Shown here: positions 14,608 to 64,000 of the stretch, in pieces | Layout of the letters: each line of letters opens with the position of its first letter | How positions within the stretch are numbered: position 1 is the first letter of the stretch | NCBI GenBank assembly: GCA_964019135.1 | Contig: OZ025258.1 | Coordinates: 310,001-374,000, forward strand | Direction of reading: 5' to 3' | Source: Arenicola marina | Taxonomy: Eukaryota > Annelida > Polychaeta > Arenicolidae | Length of the DNA stretch: 64,000 bases | Notes under the pieces: generated by a model | Told to the model about the DNA's origin: nothing | Database searches by the model: none | The model's input: only the letters and a program-made list of their open reading frames with translations | Made by a program: the position numbers and the translations under genes

Positions 14608-14626
14608 ATGTCGTTGGTTTGTGCAA
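14608..14626 (+). CDS. PRPF19: PRPF19 exon 1
   Basis: ATG in context AAAAGATGTCG encodes MSLVCA plus the first base of Ile7. Donor A|GTAAGT at 14627. This matches the short first exon expected before ISNEVPEHP (human [15 protein letters not shown]). Confidence 0.95.
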
Positions 14627-23600: not shown

Positions 23601-26600
23601 AAAAGTTGTTACCAGTGAGTCATTACGTTGCCATGACTCCACCAAACGAGTCGTTACCATTGAGTCACTATGTTGCCATGGTGATGTATCTGTCTGTGTG
23701 TCTTCAGGCTTACGCGGCTGAGGCGGGTCCGGAAAACGCCGAGGAGCCGATGGAGGAGGCGGGCATGACGGAGGAAATCATTCAGAAGGTGGGTCTCCAT
23801 GGCCGCAACCCCCTTAGTTACTGGGCCGTCTTCCCAGCTCAGGCTGGCCTAGGGTGGGTCTCCACGGCCTCAACCCCCTTAGTTACTGGGCCGTCTTCCC
23901 AGCTCAGGCTGGCCTGGGGTGGGTCTCCACGGCCTCAACCCCCTTATTTACTGGGCCGTCTTCCCAGCTCAGGCTGGCCTGGGGTGGGTCTCCACTGCCG
24001 CAACCCCCTTAGTTACTGGGCCGTCTTCCCAGCTCAGGCTGGCCTGGGGTGGGTCTCCACGGCCTCAACCCCCTTATTTACTGGGCCGTCTTCCCAGCTC
24101 AGGCTGGCCTGGGGTGGGTCTCCACTGCCGCAACCCCCTTAGTTACTGGGCCGTCTTCCAAGCTCAGGCTGGCCTAGGGTGGGTCTCCATGGCCACAACC
24201 CCCTTAGTTACTGGGCCGTCTTCCCAGCTCAGGCTGGCCTGGGGTGGGTCTCCACGGCCTCAACCCCTTTATTTACTGGGCCGTCTTCCCAGCTCAGGCT
24301 GGCCTGGGGTGGGTCTCCACTGCCGCAACCCCCTTAGTTACTGGGCCGTCTTCCAAGCTCAGGCTGGCCTAGGGTGGGTCTCCATGGCCACAACCCCCTT
24401 AGTTACTGGGCCGTCTTCCCAGCTCAGGCTGGCCTGGGGTGGGTCTCCACGGCCTCAACCCCCTTAGTTACTGGGCCGTCTTCCCAGCTCAGGCTGGCCT
24501 AGGGTGGTTCTCCATGGCCACAACACCCTTAGTTACTGGGCCGTTTCCCCAGCTCAGGCTGGCCTGGGGTGGGTCTCCACGGCCTCAACCCCCCCCAGCT
24601 CAGGCTGGCCTGGGGTGGGTCACCACGGCCTCAACCCCCTTAGTTACTGGGCCGTCTTCCAAGCTCAGGCTGGCCTAGGGTGGGTCTCCATGGCCACAAC
24701 ACCCTTAGTTACTGGGCCGTCTCCCCAGCTCAGGCTGGCCTGGGGTGGGTCTCCACGGCCTCAACTCCCTTAGTTACTGGGCCGTCTCCCCAGCTCAGGC
24801 TGGCCTGGGGTGGGTCTCCACGGCCTCAACCCCCTTAGTTACTGGGCCGTCTCCCCAGCTTAGGCTGGCCTGGGGTGGGTCTCCACGGCCTCAACTCCCT
24901 TAGTTACTGGGCCGTCTTCCCAGCTCAGGCTGGCCTTGGGTGGGTCTCCACGGCCTAAATCCCCTTAGTTACTGGGCCGTCTTCCCAGCTCAGGCTGGCC
25001 TGGGGTGGGTCTCCACGGCCTCAACCCTCTTAGTTACTGGGCCATCTTCCCAGCTCAGGCTGGCCTGGGGTGGGTCTCCACGGCCTCAACCCCCTTAGTT
25101 ACTGGGCCGTCTTCCCAGCTCAGGCTGGCCTGGGGTGGGTCTCCACGGCCTCAACCCCCTTAGTTACTGGCCCGTCTTCCCAGCTCAGGCTGGCCTGGGG
25201 TGGGTCTCCACGGCCTCAACCCCCATAGTTACTGGGCCGTCTTCCCAGCTCAGGCTGGCCTGGGGTGGGTCTCCACGGCCTCAACCCCCTTATTTACTGG
25301 GCCGTCTCCCCAGCTCAGGCTGGCCTGGGGTGGGTCTCCACGGCCTCAACCCTCTTAGTTACTGGGCCATCTTCCCAGCTCAGGCTGGCCTGGGGTGGGT
25401 CTCCACGGCCTCAACCCCCTTAGTTACTGGGCCGTCTTCCCAGCTCAGGCTGGCCTGGGGTGGGTCTCCACGGCCTCAACCCCCTTAGTTACTGGGCCGT
25501 CTTCCCAGCTCAGGCTGGCCTGGGGTGGGTCTCCACGGCCTTAACCCCCTTATTTAGTGGGCCGTCTCCCCAGCTCAGGCTGGCCTGGGGTGGGTCACCA
25601 CGGCCTCAACCCCCTTAGTTACTGGGCCGTCTTCCAAGCTCAGGCTGGCCTAGGGTGGGTCTCCATGGCCACAACACCCTTAGTTACTGGGCCGTCTCCC
25701 CAGCTCAGGCTGGCCTGGGGTGGGTCTCCACGGCCTCAACTCCCTTAGTTACTGGGCCGTCTCCCCAGCTCAGGCTGGCCTGGGGTGGGTCTCCACGGCC
25801 TCAACCCCCTTAGTTACTGGGCCGTCTCCCCAGCTTAGGCTGGCCTGGGGTGGGTCTCCACGGCCTCAACTCCCTTAGTTACTGGGCCGTCTTCCCAGCT
25901 CAGGCTGGCCTGGGGTGGGTCTCCAAGGCCTAAATCCCCTTAGTTACTGGGCCGTCTTCCCAGCTCAGGCTGGCCTGGGGTGGGTCTCCACGGCCTCAAC
26001 CCTCTTAGTTACTGGGCCATCTTCCCAGCTCAGGCTGGCCTGGGGTGGGTCTCCACGGCCTCAACCCCCTTAGTTACTGGGCCGTCTTCCCAGCTCAGGC
26101 TGGCCTGGGGTGGGTCTCCACGGCCTCAACCCCCTTAGTTACTGGCCCGTCTTCCCAGCTCAGGCCGGCCTGGGGTGGGTCTCCACGGCCTCAACCCCCA
26201 TAGTTACTGGGCCGTCTTCCCAGCTCAGGCTGGCCTGGGGTGGGTCTCCACGGCCTCAACCCCCTTAGTTACTGGCCCGTCTTCCCAGCTCAGGCTGGCC
26301 TGGGGTGGGTCTCCACGGCCTCAACCCCCATAGTTACTGGGCCGTCTTCCCAGCTCAGGCTGGCCTGGGGTGGGTCTCCACGGCCTCAACCCCCTTAGTT
26401 ACTGGGCCGTCTCCCCAGCTCAGGCTGGCCTGGGGTGGGTCTCCACGGCCTCAACCCTCTTAGTTACTGGGCCATCTTCCCAGCTCAGGCTGGCCTGGGG
26501 TGGGTCTCCACGGCCTCAACCCCCTTAGTTACTGGGCCGTCTTCCCAGCTCAGGCTGGCCTTGGGTGGGTCTCCACGGCCTCAACCCCCTTAGTTACTGG

Positions 26601-29600
26601 GCCGTCTTCCCAGCTCAGGCTGGCCTGGGGTGGGTCTCCACGGCCTCAACCCCCTTATTTAGTGAGCCGTCTCCCCAGCTCAGGCTGGCCTGGGGTGGGT
26701 CACCACGGCCTCAACCCCCTTAGTTACTGGGCCGTCTCCCCAGCTCAGGCTGGCCTGGGGTGGGTCTCCACGGCCTCAACTCCCTTAGTTACTGGCCCGT
26801 CTTCCCAGCTCAGGCTGGCCTGGGGTGGGTCTCCACGGCCTCAACCCCCATAGTTACTGGGCCGTCTTCCCAGCTCAGGCTGGCCTGGGGTGGGTCTCCA
26901 CGGCCTCAACCCCCTTAGTTACTGGGCCGTCTCCCCAGCTCAGGCTGGCCTGGGGTGGGTCTCCACGGCCTCAACCCTCTTAGTTACTGGGCCATCTTCC
27001 CAGCTCAGGCTGGCCTGGGGTGGGTCTCCACGGCCTCAACCCCCTTAGTTACTGGGCCGTCTTCCCAGCTCAGGCTGGCCTTGGGTGGGTCTCCACGGCC
27101 TCAACCCCCTTAGTTACTGGGCCGTCTTCCCAGCTCAGGCTGGCCTGGGGTGGGTCTCCACGGCCTCAACCCCCTTATTTAGTGAGCCGTCTCCCCAGCT
27201 CAGGCTGGCCTGGGGTGGGTCACCACGGCCTCAACCCCCTTAGTTACTGGGCCGTCTCCCCAGCTCAGGCTGGCCTGGGGTGGGTCTCCACGGCCTCAAC
27301 TCCCTTAGTTACTGGGCCGTCTCCCCAGCTCAGGCTGGCCTGGGGTGGGTCTCCACGGCCTCAACCCCCTTAGTTACTGGGCCGTCTCCCCAGCTTAGGC
27401 TGGCCTGGGGTGGGTCTCCACGGCCTCAACTCCCTTAGTTACTGGGTCGTCTTCCCAGCTCAGGCTGGCCTGGGGTGGGTCTCCACGGCCTAAATCCCCT
27501 TAGTTACTGGGCCGTCTTCCCAGCTCAGGCTGGCCTGGGGTGGGTCTCCACGGCCTCAACCCTCTTAGTTACTGGGCCATCTTCCCAGCTCAGGCTGGCC
27601 TGGGGTGGGTCTCCACGGCCTCAACCCCCTTATTTACTGGACCGTCTTCCCGGCTCAGGCTGGCCTTGGGTGGGTCTCCACGGCCTCAACCCCCTTAGTT
27701 ACTGGCCCGTCTTCCCAGCTCAGGCCGGCCTGGGGTGGGTCTCCACGGCCTCAACCCCCATAGTTACTGGGCCGTCTTCCCAGCTCAGGCTGGCCTGGGG
27801 TGGGTCTCCACGGCCTCAACCCCCTTAGTTACTGGGCCGTCTCCCCAGCTCAGGCTGGCCTGGGGTGGATCTCCACGGCCTCAACCCTCTTAGTTACTGG
27901 GCCATCTTCCCAGCTCAGGCTGGCCTGGGGTGGGTCTCCACGGCCTCAACCCCCTTAGTTACTGGGCCGTCTTCCCAGCTCAGGCTGGCCTGGGGTGGGT
28001 CTCCACGGCCTCAACCCCCTTAGTTACTGGGCCGTCTTCCCAGCTCAGGGTGGCCTGGGGTGGGTCTCCACGGCCTCAACCCCCTTAGTTACTGGGCCGT
28101 CTTCCCAGCTCAGGCTGGCCTAGCGTGGGTCTCCACGGCCTCAACCCCCTTAGTTACTGGGCTGTCTCCCCAGCTCAGGCTGGCCTGGGGTGGGTCTCTA
28201 CGGCCTCAACCCCCTTAGTTACTGGGCCGTCTCCCCATCTCAGGCTGGCCTGGGGTGGGTCTCCACGGCCTCAACCCCCTTAGTTACTGGGCTGTCTTCC
28301 CAGCTCAGGCTGGCCTGGGGTGGGTCTCTACGGCCGCAACCCCCTTAGTTACTGGGCCGTCTCCCCAGCTCAGGCTGGCCTAGGGTGGGTCTCCACGGCC
28401 TCAACCCCCTTAGTTACTGGCCCGTCTTCCCAGCTCAGGCTGGCCTGGGGTGGGTCTCCACGGCCTCAACCCCCTTAGTTACTGGGCCGTCTCCCCAGCT
28501 CAGGCTGAACTCCAGATCAAACAGGTCCTGGGTACGAACCCTGGCACCTGCGTCTGGAGCAAGCTACATCCAATCCCATTCCATTGTCCCGGGAGGTTTC
28601 TGGTTCCGATGTAGCGTTCATGTGCAGAAACGTGGCCTAAACACCAAACATTTCATTTAGTTTCCCTAGTTGCTGTAATATTACTTCGTTACTGTAATGA
28701 GTACCTATGTTGTGTAATATTACTTGGTTACTGTAATGAGTACCTATGTTGTGTAATATTACTTGGTTACTGTAATGAGTACCTATGTTGTGTAATATTA
28801 CTTGGTTACTGTAATGAGTACCTATGTTGTGTAATATTACTTGGTTACTGTAATGAGTACCTATGTTGTGTAATATTACTTGGTTACTGTAATGAGTACC
28901 TATGTTGTGTAAGGAGTACCTTTATCCCGAGGGATCCTCTTGCCAACATACTACCTTCTGGTGACTAGTCATCTAGGGCAATGACCTGGATTTGTTTTTT
29001 TTTAACTCATTCGCACTGTGGAGTGTTTCCCGGTATTTCGGGTTGCTTGGTGCCGTGTCTGTGGTGACTCAACCTCCTATCGTTACAGCTGCAAGACAAG
29101 GCCACGTTGTTGACTGCCGAGCGTAAGAAGCGGGGTAAGACAGTACCCGAGGGCCTGGTCACCAGCGAGGATCTGCGGGCCTTCAGACAGCTGGCCTCTC
29201 ACGTGGTCAGTATTAATACCCACAATGCACAGCAAACCGTGTCATAGTCATGGTATGAGCTGGTGTTATATAGAGCGTCAGACCCGCTGGTATGTCGCGT
29301 CACAACGCGCCCGTCTCTCTGGATCATAACGGTTATATAACGGGTTGTAGCATAGCGGCGTTACACTATATACTGATATCGCTGTCAGTGATATAACGGG
29401 TTGTAGCGTAGCGGAGTTACACTACCTACTGATATTGTTGTCTGGGATATAACGGGTTGTAGCATAGCGGAGTTACACTAGCTACTGATATTGTTGTCTG
29501 GGATATAACGGGTTGTAGCATAACGGAGTTACACTACCTACTGATATTGTTGTCAGGGATATAACGGGTTGTAGCATAGCGGAGTTACACTACTTGCTGA

Positions 29601-32600
29601 TATTGTTGTCAGGGACATAACGGGTTGTAGCAAAGCGGAGTTACACTACCTACTGATATTGTTGTCAGGGATATAACGGGTTGTAGCATAGCGGAGTTAC
29701 ACTACCTACTGATATCGTTGTCAGGGAAATAACGGGTTGTAGCATAGCGGAGTTACACTACTTACTGATATCGTTGTCAGGGACATAACGGGTTGTAGCA
29801 TAGCGGAGTTACACTACTTACTGATATCGTTGTCAGGGACATAACGGGTTGTAGCATAGCGGAGTTACACTACTTCCTGATATCGTTGTCAGGGACATAA
29901 CGGGTTGTAGCATAGCGGAGTTACACTACTTACTGATATCGTTGTCAGGGACATAACGGGTTGTAGCATAACGGAGTTACACTACCTACTGATATTGTTG
30001 TCAGGGATATAACTGGTTGTAGCATAGCGGAGTTACACTACTTACTGATATCGTTGTCAGGGACATAACGGGTTGTAGCATAACGGAGTTACACTACCTA
30101 CTGATATTGTTGTCAGGGATATAACGGGTTGTAGCATAGCGGAGTTACACTACTTACTGATATCGTTGTCAGGGACATAACGGGTTGTAGCATAGCGGAG
30201 TTACACTACTTACTGATATCGTTGTCAGGGACATAACGGGTTGTAGCATAGCGGAGTTACACTACTTACTGATATCGTTGTCAGGGACATAACGGGTTGT
30301 ATGTTATCACTTCACGTGTAAACCCCCCCCCCCCGTTGGTGTTGCTCGCAGGGTCTGCACAGCGCCAGCATGCCCGGCATCCTGGCCCTGGACGTCTGTC
30401 TCAGGGACACCTCTAAGGTCGTCACCGGCGGCAACGACAAGAACGCCGTCGTCTTCAACAAGGACACCGAGCAGGTCATGGCCATCCTTCAAGGTCACAC
30501 CAAGAAGGTCACCGGGGTCATCTATCACCCAGACGACGTACGTTGGTTTGTTTGTGTTTTCCTGTTTCAATACGTCCAAGTGTGTTACAGACAGCCAGAC
30601 AGTTCCAGTGTGCTACAGACCGCCAGACAGTCCCAGTTTGCTACAAACAGCCAGACAGTCCCAGTGTGCTACAGACAGCCAGTCCCAGTGTGCTACAGAC
30701 AGCCAGACAGTTCCAGTGTGCTACAGACAGTCAACCAGTCCCAGTGTGCTACAGACAGCCAGACAGCCAGACAGTCCCAGTGTGCTAGAGACAGCCAGCC
30801 AGTCCCAGTGTGCTACAGACAGCCAGACAGTACCAGTGTGCTACAGACAGCCAGACAGTCCCAGTGTGCTAGAGACAGCCAGCCAGTCCCAGTGTGCTAC
30901 AGACAACCAGTCCCACTGTGCTACAGACAGCCAGACAGTCTGAGTGTGCTACAGACAGCCAGACAGTACCAGTGTGCTACAGACAGCCAGACAGTCCCAG
31001 TGTGCTAGAAACAGCCAGCCAGTCCCAGTTTGCTACAGACAGCCAGACAGTCTGAGTGTGCTACAGACAGCCAGACAGTCCCAGTGTGCTACAGACAGCC
31101 AGACAGTCCCAGTGTGCTACAGACAGCCAGACAGTCCCAGAGTGCTACAGACCGCCAGCCAGTCCCAGTGTGTTACAGACAGCCAGACAGTCCCAGTTTG
31201 CTACAGACAGCCAGACAGTCCCATTGTCCCGAAGACATCCAGACAGCCCCAGTCCGAGTGTGCTACAGATATCCAGATAGCCCCAGTGTGTTACAGACAG
31301 CCAGCCAGTCCCAGTGTGCTACAGACAGCCAGACAGCCCCAGTGTGCTAGAGACAGCCAGACAGTCCCAGTGTGCTAGAGACAGCCAGCCAGTCCCAGTG
31401 TGCTACAGACAACCAGTCCCAGTGTGCTACAGACAGCCAGACAGTCTGAGTGTGCTACAGACAGCCAGACAGTCCCAGTGTGCTACAGACAGCCAGACAG
31501 TCCCAGTGTGCTACAGACAGCCAGTCCCAGTGTGCTACAGACCGCCAGCCAGTCCCAGTGTGTTACAGACAGCCAGACAGTCCCAGTTTGCTACAGACAG
31601 GCAGACAGTCCCATTGTCCCGAAGACATCCAGACAGCCCCAGTCCGAGTGTGCTACAGATATCCAGATAGCCCCAGTGTGTTACAGACAGCCAGCCAGTC
31701 CCAGTGTGCTACAGACAGCCAGACAGCCCCAGTGTGCTACAGACAGCCAGACAGTCCCAGTGTGTTACAGACAGCCAGACAGTCCCAGTGTGCTACAGAC
31801 AGCCAGACAGCCCTAGTGTGTTACAGACAGCCAGCCAGTCCCAGTGTGCTACAGACAGCCACAGTCCCAGTGTGCTACAGACAGCCAGACAGTCCCAGTG
31901 TTCTACAGACAGCCAGACAGTCCCAGTGTTACAGACAGCCAGACAGCCGTAGTGTGTTACAGACAGCCAGCCAGCCAGTCCCAGTGTGCTACAGACAGCC
32001 AGAGAGTCCCAGTGTGTTACAGATAGCCAGGCAGTCCCAGTGTGTTACAGATAGCCAGACAGTCCCAGTGTGCTACAGACAACCAGACAGTCCCAGTGTG
32101 TTACAGACAGCCAGACAGCCCTAGTGTGCTACAGACAGCCAGACAGTCCCAGTGTGTTACAGACAGCCAGACAGCCCCAGTGTGCTACAGACAGACAGCC
32201 AGTCCCAGTGTGCTACAGACAGCCAGACAGCCTAGTGTGTCACAGACAATCCCAGTGTGCTACAGACAGCCAGACAGTCCCAGTGTGCTACAGACAGCCC
32301 TAGTGTGTTGCAGACAGCCAGACAGTCCCAGTGTGTTACAGCCAGTCCCAGTGTGCTACAGACAGCCAGACAGCCCTAGTGTGTTACAGACAGCCAGACA
32401 GTCCCAGTGTGTCACAGCCAGTCTCAGTGTGTTAGAGACAACCAGACAGCCCTAGTGTGTTACAGACAACCAGACAGTCCCAGTGTGCTACAGACAGCCA
32501 GACAGTCCTAGTGTGTTACAGACAGCCAGACAGTCCCAGTGTGTTACAGACAGTCCCAGTGTGCTACAGACAGCCAGACAGCCCCAGTGTGTTACAGACA

Positions 32601-35600
32601 GCCAGACAGTCCCAGTGTGCTACAGACAGCCAGACAGTCCTAGTGTGTGAAAGACAGCCAGACAGTCCCAGTGTGCTACAGACAGCCAGACAGCCCTAGT
32701 GTGTTACAGACAGCCAGCCAGTCCCAGTGTGCTACAGACAGCCACAGTCCCAGTGTGCTACAGACAGCCAGACAGTCCCAGTGTGCTACAGACAGCCAGA
32801 CAGTCCCAGTGTTACAGACAGCCAGACAGCCGTAGTGTGTTACAGACAGCCAGCCAGCCAGTCCCAGTGTGCTACAGGCAGCCAGAGAGTCCCAGTGTGT
32901 TACAGATAGCCAGGCAGTTCCAGTGTGTTACAGATAGCCAGACAGCCCTAGTGTGTTACAGACAGCCAGATAGGCCCAGTGGGCTACAGAGAGCCAGACA
33001 GTCCCAGTGTGCTACAGACAGCCAGACAGTCCCAGTGTGATACAGACAGCCAGACAGTCCCAGTGTGCTACAGACAGCCAGACAGTCCCAGTGTGCTACA
33101 GACAGCCGGACAGTCCTAGTGTGTTACAGACAGCCAGACGGGCCCAGTGGGCTACAGACAGCCAGACAGTCCCAGTGTGCTTCAGACAGCCAGACAGTCC
33201 TAGTGTGTTACACACAGCCAGACAGTCCCAGTGTGTTACAGATAGGCAGACAGCCCTAGTGTGTTACAGACAGCCAGTCCCAGTGTGCTACAGACAGCCA
33301 CAGTCCCAGTGTGCTACAGACAGCCAGCCAGTCCTAGTGTGTTACAGACAGCCAGACAGTCCCAGTGTGCTACAGACAGCCAGACGGTCCCAGTGTGCTA
33401 CAGACAGCCAGGCAGCCAGACGGTCCCAGTGTGCTACAGGCAGCCAGACAGCCCTAGTGTGTTACAGACAGCCACAGTCCCAGTGTGCTACAGACAGCCA
33501 GACAGTCCCAGTGTGCTACAGACAGCCAGACAGTCCCAGTGTGCTACAGGCAGCCAGACAACCCTAGTGTGTTACAGAGAGCCAGACAGTCCCAGTGTGC
33601 TACAGACAGCCAGACACCCAGACAGTCCCAGTGTGCTAGAGACAGCCAGCCAGTCCCAATGTGCTACAGACAGCCAGTCCCAGTGTGCTACAGAGAGCCA
33701 GACAGTCCCAGTGTGCTAGAGACAGCCAGACAGTCCCAGTGTGCTACAGACCGTCAGCCAGTCCCAGTGTTACAGACAGCCAGACAGTCCCAGTTTGCTA
33801 CAGACAGCCAGACAGTTCCAGTGTGCCGAAGACATCCAGACGGCCCCAGTGTGCTACAGACATCCAGACAGCCCCAGTGTGTTACAGCCAGCCAGACAGT
33901 CCCAGTGTGCTACAGACAGCCAGACAGCCCTAGTGTGTTACAGACAGCCAGGCAGGCCTAGTGAGCTACAGACAGCCAGACAGTCCCAGTGTGTTACAGA
34001 CAGCCAGACAGCCCTAGTGTGTTACAGACAACCAGACAGGCCTACTGGGCTACAGACAGCCAGACAGTCCCAGTGGGCTACAGACAGCCAGACAGCCCCA
34101 GTGTGCTACAGGCAGCCAGACAGTCCCTGTGTGCTACAGACAGCCAGCCAGTCCCAGTGTGCTACAGACAGCCAGACAACCCCAGTGTGTTACAGACAAC
34201 CACAGTCCCAGTGTGCTACAGGCAGCCACAGTCCCAGTGTGCTACAGACAGCCACAGTCCCAGTGTGCTACAGACAGCCATACAGCCCTAGTGTGTTACA
34301 GACAGCCAGACAGTCCCAGTGTGCTACAGACAGCCAGACAGTCCCAGTGTGCTACAGACAGCCAGACAGCCCTAGTGTGTTACAGACAGCCAGACAGTCC
34401 CAGTGTGTTACAGACAGCTAGACAGTCCCAGTGTGCTACAGACAGCCAGAGAGCCAGACGGTCCCAGTGTGCTACAGACAGCCAGCCAGTCCCAGTGTGC
34501 TACAGACCGTCAGCCAGTCCCAGTGTTACAGACAGCCAGACAGTCCCAGTTTGCTACAGACAGCCAGACAGTTCCAGTGTGCCGAAGACATCCAGACGGC
34601 CCCAGTGTGCTACAGACATCCAGACAGCCCCAGTGTGTTACAGCCAGCCAGACAGTCCCAGTGTGCTACAGACAGCCAGACAGCCCTAGTGTGTTACAGA
34701 CAGCCAGGCAGGCCTAGTGAGCTACAGACAGCCAGACAGTCCCAGTGTGTTACAGACAGCCAGACAGCCCTAGTGTGTTACAGACAACCAGACAGGCCTA
34801 CTGGGCTACAGACAGCCAGACAGTGACAGTGGGCTACAGACAGCCAGACAGCCCCAGTGTGCTACAGGCAGCCAGACAGTCCCTGTGTGCTACAGACAGC
34901 CAGCCAGTCCCAGTGTGCTACAGACAGCCAGACAACCCCAGTGTGTTACAGACAACCACAGTCCCAGTGTGCTACAGGCAGCCACAGTCCCAGTGTGCTA
35001 CAGACAGCCACAGTCCCAGTGTGCTACAGACAGCCATACAGCCCTAGTGTGTTACAGACAGCCAGACAGTCCCAGTGTGCTACAGACAGCCAGACAGTCC
35101 CAGTGTGCTACAGACAGCCAGACAGCCCTAGTGTGTTACAGACAGCCAGACAGTCCCAGTGTGTTACAGACAGCTAGACAGTCCCAGTGTGCTACAGACA
35201 GCCAGAGAGCCAGACGGTCCCAGTGTGCTACAGACAGCCAGCCAGTCCCAGTGTGCTACAGACAGCCAGACAGTCCCAGTGTGCTACAGACAGCCAGACA
35301 GTCCCAGTGTGCTACAGACAGCCAGACAGTCCCAGTGTGCTACAGACAGCCAGACATTCCCAGTGTGCTACAGACAGCCAGCCTGTCCCAGTGTGCTACA
35401 GACTGCCAGACAGTCCCAGTGTGCTACAGACAGCCAGACAGTCCCAGTGTGCTGAAGACCGCCAGCCAGTCCCAGTGTGTTACAGACAGCCACACAGTCC
35501 CAGTGTGTTACAGACAGCCACAGTCCCAGTGTGCTACGGACAGCCAGACAGTCCCAGTGTGTTATAGACAGCCAGACCCAGTGTGCTACAGACAGCCACA

Positions 35601-38600
35601 GTCCCAGTGTGCTACAGACAGCCAGACAGCCCTAGTGTGCTAGAGACTGCCAGACAGTCCCAGTGGGCTACAGACAGCCAGATAGTGTGTTACAGACCGC
35701 CAGACAATCCCAGTAGGCCACCTCTTTACTTATGGCTACATATCCCTGTTAAATTATTTAATCTCGTGTTATTGTGGCTGTAATGCCATACTTGGGCCAA
35801 CATGATGATGGCCATGAATTATTATCAATGTCAGATATTATCAATTACTTATAAGTGCCTTCCCTCGGTACGTGCCATTGAGCCCCTCACTGTGGTGTCC
35901 ACTGCTAATATAAGCCAGACGCTGTTTTTCGCCGCGTTGACCTTGCCGTGACCCGCTCTATTATATATAGCATGGGGCATAGCATTATTGGACATTAGTG
36001 GAATCATTCAAAAGTTGTTTTCCCTTCGATGTACGATGTTGGTGAGTTGCTTCCGCTCAGGTTGCGAAGTAATAACTGTAATGTACATGTCATGACCTCC
36101 ATGTATATGTGTCCGTGTCTTGCCCGACAGGAGCTGGTGTTCACCGCCTCCCAGGACCACACGATCCGGGTGTGGGGCGTCCAGCAGACCGCACCCTGCG
36201 CCCACGTGCTGCGCGCGCACGACGGACCCGTCACCGGCATCAGTCTGCACGCCACGGGGGACTACCTCCTCAGCTGCTCCACCGACTCGGTCAGTACACG
36301 GGGGACTACCTCCTCAGCTGCTCCACCGACTCGTTCAGTACACGGGGGGACTACCTCCTCAGCTGCTCCACCGACTCGGTCAGTACACGGGGGACTACCT
36401 CCTCAGCTGCTCCACCGACTCGGTTAGTACACGGGGGGACTACCTCCTCAGCTGCCCCACCGACTCGGTCAGTACACGGGGGATCACCTCCTCAGCTGCT
36501 CCACCGACTCGGTCAGTACACGGGGGACTACCTCCTCAGCTGCTCCACCGACTCGGTCAGTACACGGGGGACTACCTCCTCAGCTGCCCCACCGACTCGG
36601 TCAGTACACGGGGGATCACCTCCTCATCTGCTCCACCGACTCAGTCAGTACACGGGGGACTACCTCCTCAGCTGCTCCACCGACTCGGTCAGTACACGGG
36701 GGACTACCTCCTCAGCTGCTCCACCGACTCGGTCAGTACACGGGGGACTACCTCCTCAGCTGCCCCACCGACTCGGTTAGTACACGTGGGACTACCACCT
36801 CAGCTGCTCCACCGACTCGGTCAGTACACGGGGGACTACCTCCTCAGCTGCCCCACCGACTCGGTCAGTACACGGGGGATCACCTCCTCAGCTGCTCCAC
36901 CGACTCAGTCAGTACACGGGGGACTACCTCCTCAGCTGCTCCATCGACTCGGTCAGTACACGGGGGACTACCTCCTCAGCTGCTCCACCGACTCGGTCGG
37001 TACACGGGGGACTACCTCCTCAGCTGCCCCACCGACTCGGTTAGTACACGGGGGACTACCACCTCAGCTGCTCCACCGACTCGGTCAGTACACGGGGGAC
37101 TACCTCCTCAGCTGCTCCACCGACTCGGTCAGTACACGGGGGACTACCTCCTCAGCTGCTCCACCGACTCGGTCAGGACACGGGGGACTACCTCCTCAGC
37201 TGCCCCACCGACTCGGTCAGTACACGGGGGACTACCTCCTCAGCTGCCCCACCGACTCGGTCAGTACACGGGCGATTACCTCCTCAGCAGCTCCACCGAC
37301 TCGGTCAGTACACGGGAGATCACCTCCTCAGCTGCCCCACCGACTCGGTCAGTGCAGAGGGGACTACCTCCTCAGCTGCTCCACCGACTCGGTCAGTACA
37401 CGGGGGACTACCTCCTCAGCTGCTCCACCGACTCGGTCAGTACACGGGAGACTACCTCCTCAGCTGCCCCACCGACTCGGTCAGTACACGGGGGACTACC
37501 TCCTCAGCTGCTCCACCGACTCGGTCAGTACACGGGGGACTACCTCCTCAGCTGCCCCACCGACTCGGTCAGTACACGGGGGATTACCTCCTCAGCAGCT
37601 CCACCGACTCGGTCAGTACACGGGGGATCACCTCCTCAGCTGCCCCACCGACTCGGTCAGTGCAGAGGGGACTACCTCCTCAGCTGCTCCACCGACTCGG
37701 TCAGTACACGGGGGACTACCTCCTCAGCTGCTCCACCGACTCGGTCAGTACACGGGAGACTACCTCCTCAGCTGCCCCACCGACTCGGTCAGTACACGGG
37801 GGACTACCTCCTCAGCTGCTCCACCGACTCGGTCAGTACACGGGGGACTACCTCCTCAGCTGCTCCACCGACTCGGTCAGTACACGGGGGACTACCTCCT
37901 CAGCTGCTCCACCGACTCGGTCAGTACACGGGGGACTACCTCCTCAGCTGCTCCACCGACTCGGTCAGTACACGAGGGACTACCTCCTCAGCTGCTCCAC
38001 CGACTCGGTCAGTACACGGGGGACTACCTCCTCCGCTGCCCCACCGACTCGGTCAGTACACGGGGGACTACCTCCTCAGCTGCCCCACCGACTCGGTCAG
38101 TACACGGGGGACTACCTCCTCAGCTGCTCCACCGACTCGGTCAGTACACGGGGGACTACCACCTCAGCTGCTCCACCGACTCGGTCAGTACACGGGGGAC
38201 TACCTCCTCAGCTGCTCCACCGACTCGGTCAGTACACGGGGGACTACCTCCTCAGCTGCCCCACCGACTCGGTCAGTACACGGGGGACTACCTCCTCAGC
38301 TGCCCCACCGACTCGGTCAGTACACGGGGGCCTACCTCCTCAGCTGCCCCACCGACTCGGTCAGTACAGGGGGGACTACCTCTTCAGCTGCTCCACCGAC
38401 TCGGTCAGTACACGGGGGACTACCTCCTCAGCTGCTCCACCGACTCGGTCAGTACACGGGGGACTACCTCCTTAGCTGCTCCACCGACTCAGTCAGTACA
38501 CGGGTGACTACCTCCTCAGCTGCTCCACCGACTCGGTCAGTACACGGGGGACTACCTCCTCAGCTGCTCCACCGACTCGGTCAGTACACGGGGGACTACC

Positions 38601-41600
38601 TCCTCAGCTGCCCCACCGACTCGGTCAGTACACGGGGGACTACCTCCTCAGCTGCCCCACCGACTCGGTCAGTACACGGGGGACTACCTCCTCAGCTGCT
38701 CCACCGACTCAGTCAGTACACGGGGGACTACCTCCTCAGCTGCTCCACCGACTCGGTCAGTACACGGGGGACTACCTCCTCAGCTGCCCCACCGACTCGG
38801 TCAGTACACGGGGGACTACCTCCTCAGCTGCTCCACCGACTCAGTCAGTACACGGGGGACTACCTCCTCAGCTGCTCCACCGACTCGGTCAGTACACGGG
38901 GGACTACCTCCTCAGCTGCCCCACCGACTCGGTCAGTACACGGGGGACTACCTCCTCAGCTGCTCCACCGACTCAGTCCGTCTCACCGGTTTACTTGGTG
39001 GTCACACCGGCACAATAGTCTGGATATAGTGCGTGCTTCTGAAGTGTTGCACGGACAAAGATGTATCTAATAATTATATTTTAATATTGATCATTATGGT
39101 GATAATAATTATGTATTTGTTCAGTTGATATTGACCGAAATATTATGCAGAGTGATCGTGATCTGCTTAACGTTCTAAGCTGAAACCCGAAGAGGGGCCG
39201 CCCCGATAGCTCAGTGGGTTAGAGCGCTCGCATTGAGTGCTCTGGTTACCTGAGAGTCTAACGGCACGTGGATCGGTGGTTCCAGCCCCGCTGTGGCCAT
39301 GTCTGTGTGGTCGCAGGATAAAGATCCCATGTCTTTTTTCGCAAAGAGTAGGGGGTTACCCTCGGTGACATGGCTGCAACTCTCCCCCCCTTCTCCCATT
39401 GACGCGATATGACCAAAAGTGGTTAAAACGTCCTGAATATACAACCAACAACCAATTAAGGGCCGAAGACGTTTTTGCCGGTTTTTCGTGTGATAGTGAA
39501 TGTGTCTTACCTTCTCCTCTCACAGTACTGGGCCTTCTCCGACGTCCGCGTGGGCCGCGTCCTCACCAAGGTGTCCGAATCCGCAGGCGAGCCAGGTGAG
39601 CGGGAGTGACGATGTGTGGGGGGGGGGGGCGAGTTGTGCCGGTAATGGGACGGGGGTGTCGGGGGATAGTGCTGGTACGACATGGCGATATGCTACATAA
39701 AACCCTTGGGACTAGCGATATACAACACGAAAACATCATTTGATCGATCAATTAACCAAAACACTCGGTTCTGGCGATACACTACCAATACACACTGTCT
39801 GAGCGATATACTGTACAAAACATTCGGTTGTAGCAATATACTAGGGACACAAACCCGATTCCAGTATTACACTTCCCAAAACACTCGGTACGAAGGAACG
39901 GTACTACTCAAAACAGTTGGCTTTTGCGATGTACAACACAAACAAACATGACTTGAGGAATCTATTAACCAAAACACTCGGTCCTACCAACATAGTACGT
40001 AAACACACCCGATTCTAGTGGGGGTGTCTGGGCATAATGCCGGTAGCGAAGGGGTGGCAGGGGTTGTGGGGGGGGGGGTAGTGCCGGTGGAGGATGGAGG
40101 TATGGTGTCGGGGGGAAGGGGTGGCGAGGGGGCTATTGCCGGTAGGGTGTGGGGTGGGGGTGTTGGGGGGTCATGTATGGCAACAGTCAGTGGCACAACA
40201 TATTGATTAATCGTTGGTGTATTAAACTGGACCGCTAGCCTTAATTACACTGAATATTTCATGATGTCTGGTTGAAGTGGACAAAGTGCCATGTTGCAAT
40301 GTCACTCGGCTCTGGCTAATTCTATGAAACTGTGCTGCATGTCTGTTGTAGCCCTGACCTGTACCGCCTGTCTCTGTTGTAGCCCTGACCTGTACCGCCT
40401 GTCTGTTGCAGCCCTGACCTGTACCGCCTGTCTCTGTTGTAGCCCTGACCTGTACCGCCTGTCTGTTGTAGCCCTGACCTGTACCGCCTGTCTCTGTTGT
40501 AGCCCTGACCTGTACCGCCTGTCTGTTGTAGCCCTGACCTGTACCGCCTGTCTCTGTTGTAGCCCTGACCTGTACCGCCTGTCTGTTGCAGCCCTGACCT
40601 GTACCGCCTGTCTCTGTTGTAGCCCTGACCTGTACCGCCTGTCTGTTGTAGCCCTGACCTGTACCGCCTGTCTCTGTTGTAGCCCTGACCTGTACCGCCT
40701 GTCTGTTGTAGCCCTGACCTGTACCGCCTGTCTCTGTTGTAGCCCTGACCTGTACCGCCTTTCTGTTGTAGCCCTGACCTGTACCGCCTGTCTCTGTTGT
40801 AGCCCTGACCTGTAGCGCCTGTCTCTGTTGTAGCCCTGACCTGTACCGCCTGTCTCTGTTGTAGCCGTGACCTGTACCGCCTGTCTGTTGTAGCCCTGAC
40901 CTGTACCGCCTGTCTCTGTTGTAGCCCTGACCTGTACCGCCTGTCTCTGTTGTAGCCCTGACCTGTACCGCCTGTCTCTGTTGTAGCCCTGACCTGTACC
41001 GCCTGTCTCTGTTGTAGCCCTGACCTGTACCGCCTGTCTGTTGTAGCCCTGACCTGTACCGCCTGTCTCTGTTGTAGCCCTGACCTGTACCGCCTGTCTG
41101 TTGTAGCCCTGACCTGTACCGCCTGTCTCTGTTGTAGCCCTGACCTGTACCGCCTGTCTCTGTTGTAGCCCTGACCTGTACCGCCTGTCTCTGATGTAGC
41201 CCTGACCTGTACCGCCTCTTTGTTACAGCCCTGACCTGTACCGCCTGTCTGTTGTAGCCCTGACCTGTACCGCCTGTCTGTTGTAGCCCTGACCTGTACC
41301 GCCTGTCTGTTGTAGCCCTGACCTGTACCGCCTGTCTCTGATGTAGCCCTGACCTGTACCGCCTGTCTCTGATGTAGCCCTGACCTGTACCGCCTCTTTG
41401 TTACAGCCCTGACCTGTACCGCCTGTCTCTGATGTAGCCCTGACCTGTACCGCCTCTTTGTTACAGCCCTGACCTGTACCGCCTGTATCTGATGTAGCCC
41501 TGACCTGTACCGCCTCTTTGTTACAGCCCTGACCTGTACCGCCTGTCTCTGATGTAGCCCTGACCTGTACCGCCTGTCTCTGATGTAGCCCTGACCTGTA

Positions 41601-44600
41601 CCGCCTCTTTGTTACAGCCCTGACCTGTACCGCCTGTCTCTGATGTAGCCCTGACCTGTACCACCTGTCTCTGATGTAGCCCTGACCTGTACCGCCTGTC
41701 TCTGATGTAGCCCTGACCTGTACCGCCTCTTTGTTACAGCCCTGACCTGCGCCCAGTTCCACCCTGACGGGCTGATCTTTGGGACGGGTACAGAGGACTC
41801 AGTGGTGAAGATCTGGGACTTAAAGGAGCGGACGAACGTAGCCAACTTCCCTGGACACTCTGGGCCCATCACCAGCATCTCCTTCTCCGAGAACGGTCGG
41901 TAGCCTGGTGGCAGAGGTCGCCAGTTAACGGGGCAGGAAATGGCTCAATATATTAAGTGTTTTATAGGAGTTTAATCCTCAAACAATGTTATTGTACATC
42001 AGACATCTGGATGTTCAGACATCTCGATGTGTCTCTGAGTTGTCTCTCTGTATCTGACATGTCTGTCTGTGTGTCTCTATATGATCTGTCTATGTGTCTC
42101 TCTATATGATCTGTCTGTGTGTCTATAATCTGTCTGTGTCTCTATATAATCTGTCTGTGTGTCTCTATGATCTGTCTGTGTGTCTCTATAACCTGTCTGT
42201 GTGTCTCTATAACCTGTCTGTGTGTCTCTATATGATCTGTCTGTGTGTCTCTCTATATGATCTGTCTGTGTGTCTATAATCTGTCTGTGTCTCTATATAA
42301 TCTGTCTGTGTGTCTCTATGATCTGTCTGTGTGTCTCTATAATCTGTCTGTGTGTCTCTATAACCTGTCTGTGTGTCTCTATAACCTGTCTGTGTGTCTC
42401 TATATAATCTGTCTGTGTGTCTCTATATGATCTGGCTGTGTGTCTCTATATGATCTGGCTGTGTGTCTCTATATGATCTGTCTGTGTGTCTCTATATAAT
42501 CTGTCTGTGTGTCTCTATAATCTGTCTGTGTGTCTCTATAATCTGTCTGTGTGTCTCTATATAATCTGTCTGTGTGTATCTATAATCTGTCTGTGTGTCT
42601 CTATAATCTGTCTGTGTGTCTCTATAATCTGTCTGTGTGTCTCTATATAATCTGTCTGTGTGTCTCTATAATCTGTCTGTGTGTCTCTATAATCTGTCTG
42701 TGTGTCTCTATAATCTGTCTGTGTGTCTCTATAATCTGTCTGTGTGTCTCTATAATCTGTCTGTGTGTCTCTATAATCTGTCTGTGTGTCTCTATATAAT
42801 CTGTCTGTGTGTCTCTATAATCTGTCTGTGTGTCTCTATAATCTGTCTGTGTGTCTATATAATCTGTCTGTGTGTCTCTATAATCTGTCTGTGTGTCTCT
42901 ATATAATCTGCATGTGTGTCTATAATCTGTCTGTGTGTCTATAATCTGTCTGTGTGTCTCTATATGATCTGTCTGTGTGTCTCTATATAATCTGTCTGTG
43001 TGTCTCTGTAATCTGCATGTGTGTCTCTGTAATCTGCATGTGTGTCTCTATATTCTGTCTGTGTGTCTATATGATCTGTCTGTGTGTCTCTATATAATCT
43101 GTCTGTGTGTCTCTGTAATCTGCATGTGTGTCTCTATATTCTGTCTGTGTGTCTATGTGATCTGTCTGTGTGTCTCTATATAATCTGTCTGTGTGTCTCT
43201 ATATGATCTGTCTGTGTCTCTATATAATCTGTCTGTGTGTCTCTATAATCTGTCTGTGTGTCTCTGTAATCTGCATGTGTGTCTCTGTAATCTGCATGTG
43301 TGTCTCTATATTCTGTCTGTGTCTCTATATGATCTGTCTGTGTGTCTCTATATGATCTGTCTGTGTGTCTCTATAATCTGTCTGTGTGTCTCTATATGAT
43401 CTGTTTGTGTGTCTCTATATGATCTGTCTGTGTGTCTCTATAATCTGTCTGTGTGTCTATATAATCTGTCTGTGTGTCTCTATAATCTGTCTGTGTGTCT
43501 CTATATGATCTGTTTGTGTGTCTCTATATGATCTGTCTGTGTGTCTCTATAATCTGTCTGTGTGTCTATATAATCTGTCTGTGTGTCTCTATAATCTGTC
43601 TGTGTGTCTCTATATGATCTGTCTGTGTGTCTCTATATAATCTGTCTGTGTGTCTCTATAATCTGTCTGTGTGTCTCTATAATCTGTCTGTGTGTCTATG
43701 TGATCTGTCTGTGTGTCTCTATATAATCTGTCTGTGTGTCTCTATATGATCTGTCTGTGTGTCTATAATCTGTCTGTGTGTCTCTATAATCTGTCTGTGT
43801 GTCTCTATATAATCTGTCTGTGTGTCTCTATATAATCTGTCTGTGTGTCTATAATCTGTCTGTGTGTCTCTATATGATCTGTCTGTGTGTCTCTATATGA
43901 TTTGTCTGTGTGTCTCTATGATCTGTCTGTGTCTCTCTATAATCTGTCTGTGTGTCTCTGTAATCTGCATGTGTGTCTCTATATTCTGTCTGTGTGTCTA
44001 TATAATCTGTTTGTGTGTATGTGATCTGTCTGTGTGTCTCTATATGATCTGTCTGTGTGTCTCTATAATCTGTCTGTGTGTCTCTATAATCTGTCTGTGT
44101 GTCTCTATATAATCTGTCTGTGTGTCTCTATAATCTGTCTGTGTGTCTCTATAATCTGTCTGTGTGTCTATATAATCTGTCTGTGTGTCTCTATAATCTG
44201 TCTGTGTGTCTCTATATAATCTGCATGTGTGTCTATAATCTGTCTGTGTGTCTATAATCTGTCTGTGTGTCTCTATATGATCTGTCTGTGTGTCTCTATA
44301 TAATCTGTCTGTGTGTCTCTGTAATCTGCATGTGTGTCTCTGTAATCTGCATGTGTGTCTCTATATTCTGTCTGTGTGTCTATATGATCTGTCTGTGTGT
44401 CTCTATATAATCTGTCTGTGTGTCTCTGTAATCTGCATGTGTGTCTCTATATTCTGTCTGTGTGTCTATATGATCTGTCTGTGTGTCTCTATATAATCTG
44501 TCTGTGTGTCTCTATAATCTGTCTGTGTGTCTCTATATAATCTGTCTGTGTGTCTCTATAATCTGTCTGTGTGTCTATGTGATCTGTCTGTGTGTCTCTA

Positions 44601-47600: not shown

Positions 47601-50600
47601 TCTATATGATCTGTCTGTGTCTCTATATGATCTGTTTGTGTGTCTCTATATAATCTGTTTGTGTGTCTCTATATGATCTGTCTGTGTCTCTATATAATCT
47701 GTCTGTGTGTCTCTATATGATCTGTCTGTGTCTCTATATAATCTGTCTGTGTGTCTATATGATCTGTCTGTGTGTCTCTATATAATCTGTCTGTGTGTCT
47801 CTGTAATCTGCATGTGTGTCTCTATATTCTGTCTGTGTGTCTATATGATCTGTCTGTGTCTCTATATAATCTGTCTGTGTCTATGTGATCTGTCTGTGTG
47901 TCTCTATAATCTGTCTGTGTGTATCTATAATCTGTCTGTGTCTCTATATGATCTGTCTGTGTGTCTCTATATAATCTGTCTGTGTGTCTCTATATAATCT
48001 GTCTGTGTGTCTATGTGATCTGTCTGTGTGTCTCTATAATCTGTCTGTGTGTATCTATAATCTGTCTGTGTGTCTCTATATGATCTGTCTGTGTGTCTCT
48101 ATATGATCTGTCTGTGTCTCTATATAATCTGTCTGTGTGTCTCTGTAATCTGCATGTGTGTCTCTATATTCTGTCTGTGTGTCTATGTGATCTGTTTGTG
48201 TGTCTCTATATAATCTGTCTGTGTGTATCTATAATCTGTCTGTGTCTCTATATGATCTGTCTGTGTGTCTCTATATAATCTGTCTGTGTGTCTCTATATA
48301 ATCTGTCTGTGTGTCTATATGATCTGTCTGTGTGTCTCTATAATCTGTCTGTGTGTATCTATAATCTGTCTGTGTCTCTATATGATCTGTCTGTGTGTCT
48401 CTATATAATCTGTCTGTGTCTCTATATAATCTGTCTGTGTCTCTATATGATCTGTCTGTGTGTCTCTATATGATCTGTCTGTGTGTCTCTATATGATCTG
48501 TCTGTGTGTCTCTATATGATCTGTCTGTGTCTCTATATAATCTGTCTGTGTCTCTATATGATCTGTCTGTGTCTCTATATAATCTGTCTGTGTCTCTATA
48601 TGATCTGTCTGTGTGTCTCTATATGATCTGTCTGTGTGTCTCTATATGATCTGTCTGTGTCTCTATATAATCTGTCTGTGTCTCTATATGATCTGTCTGT
48701 GTCTCTATATGATCTGTCTGTGTCTCTATATGATCTGTTTGTGTGTCTCTATATAATCTGTCTGTGTGTCTCTATATAATCTGTCTGTGTGTCTCTATAT
48801 AATCTGTCTGTGTGTCTCTATATGATCTGTCTGTGTCTCTATATAATCTGTCTGTGTGTCTATATGATCTGTCTGTGTGTCTCTATAATCTGTCTGTGTG
48901 TCTCTATATAATCTGTCTGTGTGTCTCTATAATCTGTCTGTGTGTCTCTATATTCTGTCTGTGTGTCTATGTGATCTGTCTGTGTGTCTATGTGATCTGT
49001 CTGTGTGTCTCTATAATCTGTCTGTGTCTCTATATGATCTGTCTGTGTGTCTCTATGTGATCTGTCTGTGTGTCTCTATAATCTGTCTGTGTGTCTCTAT
49101 ATGATCTGTCTGTGTATCTATAATCTGTCTGTGTCTCTATATGATCTGTCTGTGTGTCTCTATATAATCTGTCTGTGTGTATCTATAATCTGTCTGTGTG
49201 TCTCTATATGATCTGTCTGTGTGTCTATGTGATCTGTCTGTGTGTCTATGTGATCTGTCTGTGTGTCTCTATATGATCTGTCTGTGTGTCTCTATAATCT
49301 GTCTGTGTGTCTCTATATGATCTGTCTGTGTATCTATAATCTGTCTGTGTCTCTATATAATCTGTCTGTGTGTCTCTATAATCTGTCTGTGTCTCTATAT
49401 GATCTGTCTGTGTGTCTCTATATAATCTGTCTGTGTGTCTCTATATGATCTGTCTGTGTGTCTCTATAATCTGTCTGTGTCTCTATATGATCTGTTTGTG
49501 TGTCTCTATATAATCTGTCTGTGTGTCTCTATATAATCTGTCTGTGTCTCTATATAATCTGTCTGTGTCTCTATATGATCTGTCTGTGTGTCTCTATATA
49601 ATCTGTCTGTGTGTCTATATAATCTGTCTGTGTGTCTCTATATGATCTGGCTGTGTGTCTCTATATAATCTGTCTGTGTGTCTATGTGATCTGTCTGTGT
49701 GTCTCTATAATCTGTCTGTGTGTCTCTATATGATTTGTCTGTGTGTCTCTATAATATGTCTGTGTGTCTCTATAATCTGTCTGTGTGTCTCTATATGATT
49801 TGTCTGTGTGTCTCTATAATATGTCTGTGTGACGCTGCAGGTTACTACCTGGCCACGTCTGCGGATGACTCGGTTGTCAAACTCTGGGATCTGCGCAAGT
49901 TGAAGAACTTCAAGACGATCGCCCTAGACGACCGCTACGAGGTGAGTACAGTTATCTGTCCCCCTGTCTAATGCCCACTGTTATCTGTCCCCCTGTCTAA
50001 TGATCACTGTTATCTGTCCCCCTGTCTAATGCCCACTGTTATCTGTCCCCCAGTCTAATGCCCACTGTTATCTGTCCCCCTGTCTAATGCCCACTGTTAT
50101 CTGTCCCCCAGTCTAATTACCACTGTTATCTGTCCCCCAGTCTAATGCCCACTGTTATCTGTCCCCCAGTCTAATGCCCACTGTTATCTGTCCCCCAGTC
50201 TAATGCCCACAGTTATCTGTCCCCCAGTCTAATGCCCACTGTTATCTGTCCCCCTGTCTAATGCCCACTGTTATCTGTCCTCCTGTCTAATGCCCACTGT
50301 TATCTGTCCCCCCGTCTAATGCCCACTGTTATCTGTCCTCCAGTCTAATGCCCACAGTTATCTGTCCCCCAGTCTAATGCCCACTGTTATTTGTCCCCCA
50401 GTCTAATGCCCACTGTTATCTGTCCCCCAGTCTAATGCCCACTGTTATCTGTCCTCCAGTCTAATGCCCACTGTTATCTGTCTCCCAGTCTAATGCCCAC
50501 TGTTATCTGTCCCCCTGTCTAATGGCCACTGTTATCTGTCCCCCAGTCTAATGTCCACTGTTATCTGTCCTCCAATCTAATGCCCACTGTTATCTGTCCC

Positions 50601-53495: not shown

Positions 53496-54725
53496 GCCGC
53501 CGCCAGGGGCAGTGACCTGTGACCCAAGGGGGCCTGACCTCTGACCCCGGGGGTTGGCGATGGCGGCCACAGTGATGTGATCTCTGACCCCAGGGGGCCT
53601 GACCCCTGACCCCGCTGGCTGGTGGTGGCGGTGGCAGGGCAGGGCAGGCTGGGTTAAAATGTGTCAACAGTGTTTACCCCTCCCCCGTCCCCCCGCCATG
53701 GCAAAGGCGTCCCCCCGCCATGGCAAAGGGGGGTGGTGACACACATGGGTGAGGCTCAGGCACCGCCCCTGGGTACTGACCCACAAAAGGTAAAAAGAAC
53801 GACCGTCAGCGGGGGGTGGGGGGGTGGGGGAGGGGGGTGGGGTCAGTGAGTCCTGTCCTGCAGCTCCCAGCACGGGCCTCCTGACCTTGGCTTGAAGCTC
53901 CGCTGTGGGCACTTCTTGAGGCAGCAGCACCAGCCACAACCCCAGAGTTTGGCCTGGACCGGCCCAGGGCACGGGAGAATGGCCGAGACTGGCAGAGACT
54001 GGCAGAGAATGGCAGAGAATGGCAGAGACTGGCAGAGACTGGCAGAGACTGGCAGAGAATGGCAGAGACTGGCAGAGACTGGCAGAGAATGGCAGAGAAT
54101 GGCAGAGAATGGCAGAGACTGGCAGAGAATGGCAGAGACTGGCAGAGAATGGCAGAGACTTGAAGAGGCTCGCCCATCGTGTCCTGTACATGTATCGTCC
54201 TTGAACACGAACTCAACGCCGTAAATGGACAGACTATAAATTGATATAAGAGAAAACTTGTTGTTGGATGAGGTGGGAGGGGGGGTTGGTTTGGGCACAT
54301 TGTAGGGCCATTAATATCATTGCTAAATGTTGACAAGTTTGCAAACACTTAACTTCCAGTTCAATAATATCGTCAGCTAAGAATCTAAGTGGATTAGTTT
54401 TGTATATAGACGGGAAGGCCATTTATTTTGTTTTATGATAACGCTATTTGTGTAGTCAAGAGAATCAAAGCGGCGCCCGAGAACGCCAGAATCTCTTGTT
54501 TCTCCTATTATCGCCACCACGTGGTCGGCATTGACTGGACTATGACACCACTTTGACCGCGCTTCGTGTCACAGACGCGTTCTGTGTTCATTACTTTGCA
54601 GCGAGAAGATCACGTTTAATACAGGATGATCAGTCAAATTTCCGGCGCAAGGAGTTAAAGACGTTTGTACATAAAAAGTTCGAGTGTATGGACCATCTGA
54701 CAATAAACTCCCAGTCCTGATAGGA
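53496..54725 (+). other. PRPF19: Probable PRPF19 3'UTR with polyadenylation signal
   Basis: GC-rich at first, with short repeats (CCCCCGCCATGGCAAAGG twice near 53690 and 53712), then AT-richer. A plus-strand AATAAA at 54702-54707 is a good polyadenylation signal and would give a 3'UTR of about 1.2 kb. Further AATAAA hexamers at 55144-55149 and 55182-55187 could serve a longer form. Confidence 0.55.
53982..54163 (+). repeat. 10-bp tandem repeat, ~18 copies, in the probable 3'UTR
   Basis: Units GGCAGAGACT and GGCAGAGAAT alternate irregularly. The open frames across it on both strands are by-products. Confidence 0.94.
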
Positions 54726-63400: not shown

Positions 63401-63695
63401 TGTATAGCCCATGGTGTATAGCCCGTGGTGTATAGCCAGTGGTGTATAGCCAGTGGTGTATAGCCCGTGGTGTATAGCCAGTGGTTTATAGCCTGTGGTG
63501 TATAGCCTGTGGTGTATAGCCTGTGGTGCATAGCCTGTGGTGTATAGCCTGTGGTGTATAGCCTGTGGTGTATAGCCTGTGGTGTATAGCCCATGGTGAA
63601 TAGTCTGGTGTATAGCCCATGGTGCATAGCCTGTGGTGTATAGCCCATGGTGTATAGCCCATGGTGTATAGCCCGTGGTGTATAGCCCGTGGTGT
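60413..63695. repeat. 14-bp satellite-like array, ~235 copies
   Basis: Unit GGTGTATAGCCCAT with variants GGTGTATAGCCTGT, GGTGTATAGCCCGT and GGTGTATAGTCCGT. A recurrent rare block GGTGAATAGTCTGGTG appears about every few hundred bp. The unit lacks stops on the minus strand in all frames, giving open frames up to 1133 residues (IHHGLYTTGYTP repeats) that I do not regard as genes. Confidence 0.97.
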
Positions 63696-64000
63696 ATAGC
63701 CACCGCTGTGAATGCCTGTGGTGTATAGCCACCGCTGTGAAGGCCTGTGGTGTATAGCCACCGCTGTGAATGCCTGTGGTGTATAGCCACCGCTGTGAAG
63801 GCCTGTGGTGTATAGCCACCGCTGTGAATGCCTGTGGGTTATAGCCACCGCTGTGAAGGCCTGTGGTGTATAGCCACCGTTGTGAAGGCCTGTGGTGTAT
63901 AGACACCGCTGTGAAGGCCTGTGGTGTACAGCCACCGCTGTAAAGGCCTGTGGTGTATAGCCACCGCTGTGAAGGCCTGTGGTGTATAGCCACCGCTGTA
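63696..64000. repeat. 29-bp array continuing past the window end
   Basis: Unit core CCTGTGGTGTATAGCCACCG followed by CTGTGAAGG, at least 10 copies, still running at base 64000. It shares GGTGTATAGCC with the two preceding arrays. Confidence 0.95.

Follow-up and report, generated by a model that had tools for sequence, protein, structure and literature searches.

A 62-copy tandem repeat of the exon 10 splice donor in Arenicola marina PRPF19, a large case of the boundary-spanning mirage minisatellites

Minisatellite-like tandem repeats across exon/intron boundaries, termed mirages, have been described in amphioxus. According to the accessible portions of two reports (PMC3087553, PMC3902484), they occur in Adh3, in the globin genes BflGb6 and BflGb9, in TnC and in PGBD5. 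Either the 5′ or the 3′ boundary is repeated, many copies carry the AG or GT, the authentic copy is part of the transcript, and splicing is reportedly left normal. Units measure 10-72 bp in Adh3, while BflGb6 holds 3 and 6 copies of a 150-160 bp unit in its two haplotypes (PMC3087553). Array length is described as unstable between haplotypes and somatic cells, and the cases found so far in these sources have cephalochordate hosts.

Two other systems bear on such repeats. In a potato RdRp gene, duplication of a segment with splice signals over an intron-exon boundary is reported, in the part of the article available, to have created a new intron in a single event (PMC4974935). For the choice among identical donors, the experimental test that we found consists of two-site minigenes, which in the available text have donors 52 nt apart, an internal exon built for exon definition and 365-nt flanking introns (PMC9225289).

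We analyzed a window of 64,000 nt from the Arenicola marina genome, a stretch that contains the gene of PRPF19, a splicing factor. The gene was found with a human PRPF19 query, and exon edges were placed by hand at GT/AG with the frame kept open. The 502 residues from exons 2-15 match residues 8-503 of 5mqf_G in a PDB search (E=1.6e-238). This sequence is common to 26 PDB entries and is one that we take to be human PRPF19. A short exon 1 (14608-14626) brings the open frame to 509 residues. The introns flanking exon 10 measure 5593 nt and 3236 nt, and the spliced frame through the donor given here is intact.

14608-53495, forward strand: PRPF19 gene, 15 coding exons, 509 aa (protein match and open spliced frame)
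36131-36289, forward strand: PRPF19 exon 10, 159 nt (open spliced frame, PDB PRPF19 match)
36290-36295, forward strand: authentic intron 10 donor, GTCAGT, as placed by the open frame
36290-39525, forward strand: PRPF19 intron 10, 3236 nt (gene model)
39526-39595, forward strand: PRPF19 exon 11 (gene model)
36253-38978, forward strand: 44-bp tandem array of 62 copies over the exon 10/intron 10 junction (TRF, unit parse)

The end of exon 10 is the beginning of a long array. TRF reported 61.9 copies of a 44-bp unit with 95% matches, and a unit-by-unit parse gave 62. Both agree with the initial annotation, which had described about 62 copies of a unit combining the exon 10 end with its splice donor. 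In the TRF register the unit comprises the last 37 bases of exon 10 and GTCAGTA of intron 10. The composition given earlier holds, and its division into 36 and 8 bases rather than 37 and 7 reflects a one-base register shift. Judged from copy number and identity, 62 copies at 95% are far above chance.

By the gene model, copy 1 is the actual exon 10 end and donor, and the remaining 61 copies lie within intron 10. Copy 1 equals the TRF consensus at 44/44 bases. Of the 61 steps between successive donors, 59 measure 44 bp and the other two (copy 2 to 3 and copy 4 to 5) 45 bp. After removal of the extra base of both 45-bp steps, 18 of the 61 further copies are identical to copy 1. Exon 10 is the likely source of the repeat unit, since the exon-derived bases code for residues that are conserved in PRPF19 of the PDB. 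Per-site variation is about equal in exon-derived (2.7%) and intron-derived (2.3%) columns, as expected for non-coding copies.

A lag test for higher-order repeat structure among copies 2-61 gave P=0.14. The longest identical block spans 238 bp and was matched in 15 of 400 permutations (copies 6-61; copies 1-5 and 62 excluded). Growth via unequal exchange is weakly suggested by the array, and a recent block duplication inside it finds moderate support. Further along intron 10, the stretch 39200-39340 resembles what we take to be the head of a tRNA-derived SINE; it gave no Rfam match at gathering score and no ARAGORN call. Rfam returned no RNA family at gathering score and ARAGORN no tRNA genes.

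Like the amphioxus mirages in the text available, the exon 10 array is a tandem minisatellite-like repeat of an exon/intron boundary. Its unit crosses the boundary with 37 exon and 7 intron bases, and the splice dinucleotide GT is kept in 61 of 62 copies. It is a real, clean case of this known kind, and an unusually large one: PRPF19 holds arrays of 62, 71 and 46 copies in one gene, compared with the 3 and 6 reported for BflGb6. An array of such size at a splice junction was not found in the titles and abstract openings searched, mostly of non-subscription literature. Where length instability is a described trait of mirages, the PRPF19 array is known from one sequence. Unlike the amphioxus cases, the host gene itself encodes a splicing factor. 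The potato segment is similar in its duplicated splice signals and differs in outcome, as intron 10 appears to have been lengthened, with no new intron inferred. Compared with the minigenes, a construct with two donors is replaced here by a natural gene with 62.

The initial annotation had placed dozens of locally identical donors in competition at exon 10, and this is borne out: TCG/GTCAGT occurs in 50 of 62 copies, and 49 of the 61 decoys equal the authentic 9-base donor. Its wider statement that all donors are locally equivalent does not hold. Twelve deviate, comprising copy 2 (TTCAGT), five with TCA/GTCAGT, three with GTTAGT, one with GTCGGT, one with GTCAGG and the last copy (TCA/GTCCGT). 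GT is kept in 60 of the 61 decoys, and the exception is the copy adjoining the exon (1 chance in 61, by a post hoc test on one sequence).

36334-36339, forward strand: copy 2 donor position, the nearest decoy, GT lost (TTCAGT; copy-by-copy donor parse)

Donor strength was approximated by U1 duplex energy, a crude measure. The common exon 10 donor scored -4.9 kcal/mol, and decoys with GTTAGT (copies 4, 12 and 18) were slightly stronger (-5.1 vs -4.9 for the authentic donor). Of the other 12 PRPF19 donors scored (exons 2-9 and 11-14), nine were stronger, that of exon 12 was equal, and those of exons 8 and 9 were weaker. The 13 scored donors ranged from -1.2 to -11.1, with the exon 10 donor among the weaker ones. 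The idea that local structure favors the first donor was unsupported, as the predicted accessibility of copy 1 in local folding ranked 29th, 61st and 39th of 62 under three settings.

To follow the products of decoy use, we simulated the joining of every copy's donor to exon 11, with the frame taken from exon 2. Only copy 1 gave an intact product (0 of 61 decoys). The inserts of 58 of the 61 decoys include a single stop in copy 4:

36425-36427, forward strand: in-frame TAG in copy 4 (GTTAGT variant; exon 10 frame)

The remaining three (copies 2, 3 and 4) cause a frameshift and then a stop in downstream exons. Insert length is a multiple of three for 19 of the 61 decoys (copies 6, 9, 12 and so on), and all 19 contain the 36425 stop. 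Every third copy had been described as preserving the frame, which fails on the two 45-bp steps and on this stop. The repeat had also been called open in all frames. This is correct for the consensus unit, which lacks a stop in any frame and is probably what that description relied on; the real array has stops in all three frames, those in the other two lying at 36778, 37042 and 38473, and at 38505. The conclusion that mis-spliced forms would escape removal by a nonsense codon is contradicted by the 58 inserts with a stop and the three with a frameshift. For the 44-bp array, in-frame inserts that escape stops are refuted by the sequence.

We interpret the array as a boundary-spanning minisatellite in which copy 1 stays the working donor and the first donor is picked by exon definition, a reading to which we assign a probability of about 0.8. 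A 44-bp segment over the exon 10 donor would have been tandemly duplicated, in a gene with minisatellite-rich introns, and then expanded by slippage or unequal exchange. Copy 1 would have been retained as the working exon end and donor, with the other 61 copies as intron. Because both flanking introns are long, exon 10 is probably recognized across the exon, and the donor nearest its acceptor would be chosen. Occasional mis-spliced mRNAs with a stop or frameshift would be degraded.

This reading draws on the study of Carranza and colleagues (PMC9225289), in the portions available. Among donors of similar strength, the downstream donor was preferred where introns were short (intron-defined events) and the upstream donor where they were long (exon-defined events); in minigenes with two identical donors, the upstream donor was used exclusively. 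Applied to the long introns flanking exon 10, this rule predicts the first donor. Of the two outcomes proposed in the initial annotation, the first donor winning by position appears likelier than mRNAs with inserts of n x 44 nt. The same portions of the study also hold contrary results (PMC9225289). Before strength matching, the downstream donor was favored by the majority in all four intron classes, and in 86% of events the stronger site dominated. Strict intron-definition events preferred the downstream donor, and weakening the donors led mostly to exon skipping in the larger-exon minigenes. For acceptors, upstream preference was reduced in long-intron events, which makes the case of intron 11, described below, less clear. 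Within PRPF19, the three decoys scored as slightly stronger, the weak predicted strength of the exon 10 donor and a predicted accessibility that does not favor copy 1 also count against the first-donor reading.

The array could instead be an active source of alternative mRNAs, either with n x 44 nt inserts or as a control of PRPF19 level through nonsense-mediated decay. We consider this unlikely. The GT kept in nearly every decoy, the many exact copies of the authentic 9-mer and the predicted accessibility all speak for it, and decay would be plausible for inserts that carry a stop (58 of 61) or a frameshift (3). However, no decoy yields intact protein, mirages reportedly occur without disturbed splicing in the portions of the reports available (PMC3087553, PMC3902484), and the identical-donor exon-definition minigenes, as far as described there, used the upstream donor only (PMC9225289).

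Two other splice sites of PRPF19 are repeated as well; the initial annotation had missed these, along with the fact that the structure is of a known kind. A further array nearly fills an intron.

23788-28507, forward strand: 65-bp array in intron 7, starting at the final base of exon 7 (its one exon base) and including the exon 7 donor (TRF, motif count)
40340-41749, forward strand: 31-bp acceptor-mirage array in intron 11, ending 10 nt inside exon 12 (TRF, motif count)
49951-52762, forward strand: 29-bp array over nearly all of intron 13, leaving 9 nt on the donor side and 12 nt on the acceptor side (TRF)

The intron 7 array contains 71 GTGGGT motifs, of which the first (23789) is the authentic donor. 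Besides it, one decoy (23984, three units on) keeps an intact frame. In the intron 11 array, AG/CCCTGACC occurs 46 times, the last of these (exon start 41740) being the authentic acceptor and the only one with an intact frame. Together, the three splice sites have 175 decoys (60+70+45), and 174 of them break the frame or carry a stop. The intron 13 array has 50 CCCCCAG and 89 TCTAATG motifs, which may be acceptor-like and branch-like, respectively.

Arrays dominate the gene and the window. The 18 arrays of our census account for 67.8% of the window, and their share of the exon 2-15 span is 81.8%. These were chosen from 76 TRF rows, with overlapping rows for the same arrays and small rows dropped. 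The small rows include two with two copies each, a 45-bp row in intron 6 (23592-23680) and one in intron 11 (39755-39812); further dropped rows lie at 309-344, 41999-42070, 53505-53547 and 53686-53729. Of the 13 introns that separate exons 2 to 15, nine contain one of these arrays and introns 2, 3, 5 and 6 (245-536 nt) do not. Intron 1 (4701 nt), which lies outside the census, contains no TRF row.

With arrays this frequent, some contact with junctions is expected. Under a simple null model, with every array reduced to a single unit that is given a random position in the correspondingly shortened intron, 2.1 introns of 9 should have an array touching a junction, compared with 3 observed (P(>=3)=0.34; TRF array edges are approximate). 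Boundary arrays therefore look like by-catch of frequent array birth, and by-catch of active minisatellite growth is the most likely origin of the exon 10 array. That splice sites attract array birth, through R-loops or proto-splice signals for instance, is quite improbable. Three PRPF19 junctions do fall within arrays, and in introns 12 and 13 the array stops no more than 9-12 nt from a junction, but random unit placement already gives 2.1 introns of 9, and one of the three junction arrays, that of intron 7, includes just one exon base.

Short arrays in short introns may represent the dangerous stage, with long arrays being safer. Another reading is a self-buffering array: the longer intron would bring about exon definition, in which upstream donors win, and the copies nearest the exon would have been selected to be harmless, through the GT loss of copy 2 and the copy 4 stop that covers later decoys. 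We regard this as a long shot. If true, it would turn the gene of a core splicing factor into a natural fidelity gauge for splicing, with 174 of 175 decoys leading to decay-prone mRNA.

It is very doubtful that the copy number is an assembly artefact and the real array shorter or longer. A draft genome contained one published mirage in mis-assembled form, according to the available text (PMC3087553), but the 62 copies here comprise 27 distinct variant types rather than one copied block, and other kilobase arrays surround the 44-bp array. The chance that the array belongs to a long coding exon for a repeat protein, read through in some isoform, is negligible, and this candidate was rejected: none of the three frames of the consensus unit contains a stop and a 795-aa ORF (36120-38507) runs over most of the array, but that ORF is out of the exon 10 frame, the true frame ends at 36425, and exon-like columns are as variable as intron-like ones.

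On the preferred reading, with the first donor chosen by exon definition, the cell would have to ignore dozens of look-alike splice sites in PRPF19. The gene offers 62 near-identical donors at a spacing of about 44 nt, a set of 71 in the 65-bp array and 46 acceptors spaced by about 31 nt. If only the exon-side copies are used, cross-exon proximity would gain strong support in vivo, and error rates would be measurable by position. The array content between exons 2 and 15 is itself a measure of how much minisatellite growth is tolerable in a conserved gene.

Other repeats in the window have features of their own. The 28-bp unit of the intron 9 array (30574-35714) has an exact 18-base match to the exon 4 end (20213-20230), compared with longest matches of at most 13 bases for 40 shuffled units. 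As the 18-base stretch is of low complexity, a seed copied from the exon 4 end is a possibility. Two abutting arrays, at 55234-60416 (41-bp unit) and 60405-63788 (14-bp unit), share GTGGTGTATAGCC, as if the 14-bp array had grown from part of a 41-bp unit. Of 18 ORFs listed, nine that lie outside PRPF19 exons were compared with Pfam; none gave a match at the curated cut-off (0 of 9), and one of these had three weak matches below it. Upstream of PRPF19, a 49-bp array of 102 copies lies at 1660-6631, and a 415-bp segment at 12564-13395 is present as two tandem copies with 99% matches.
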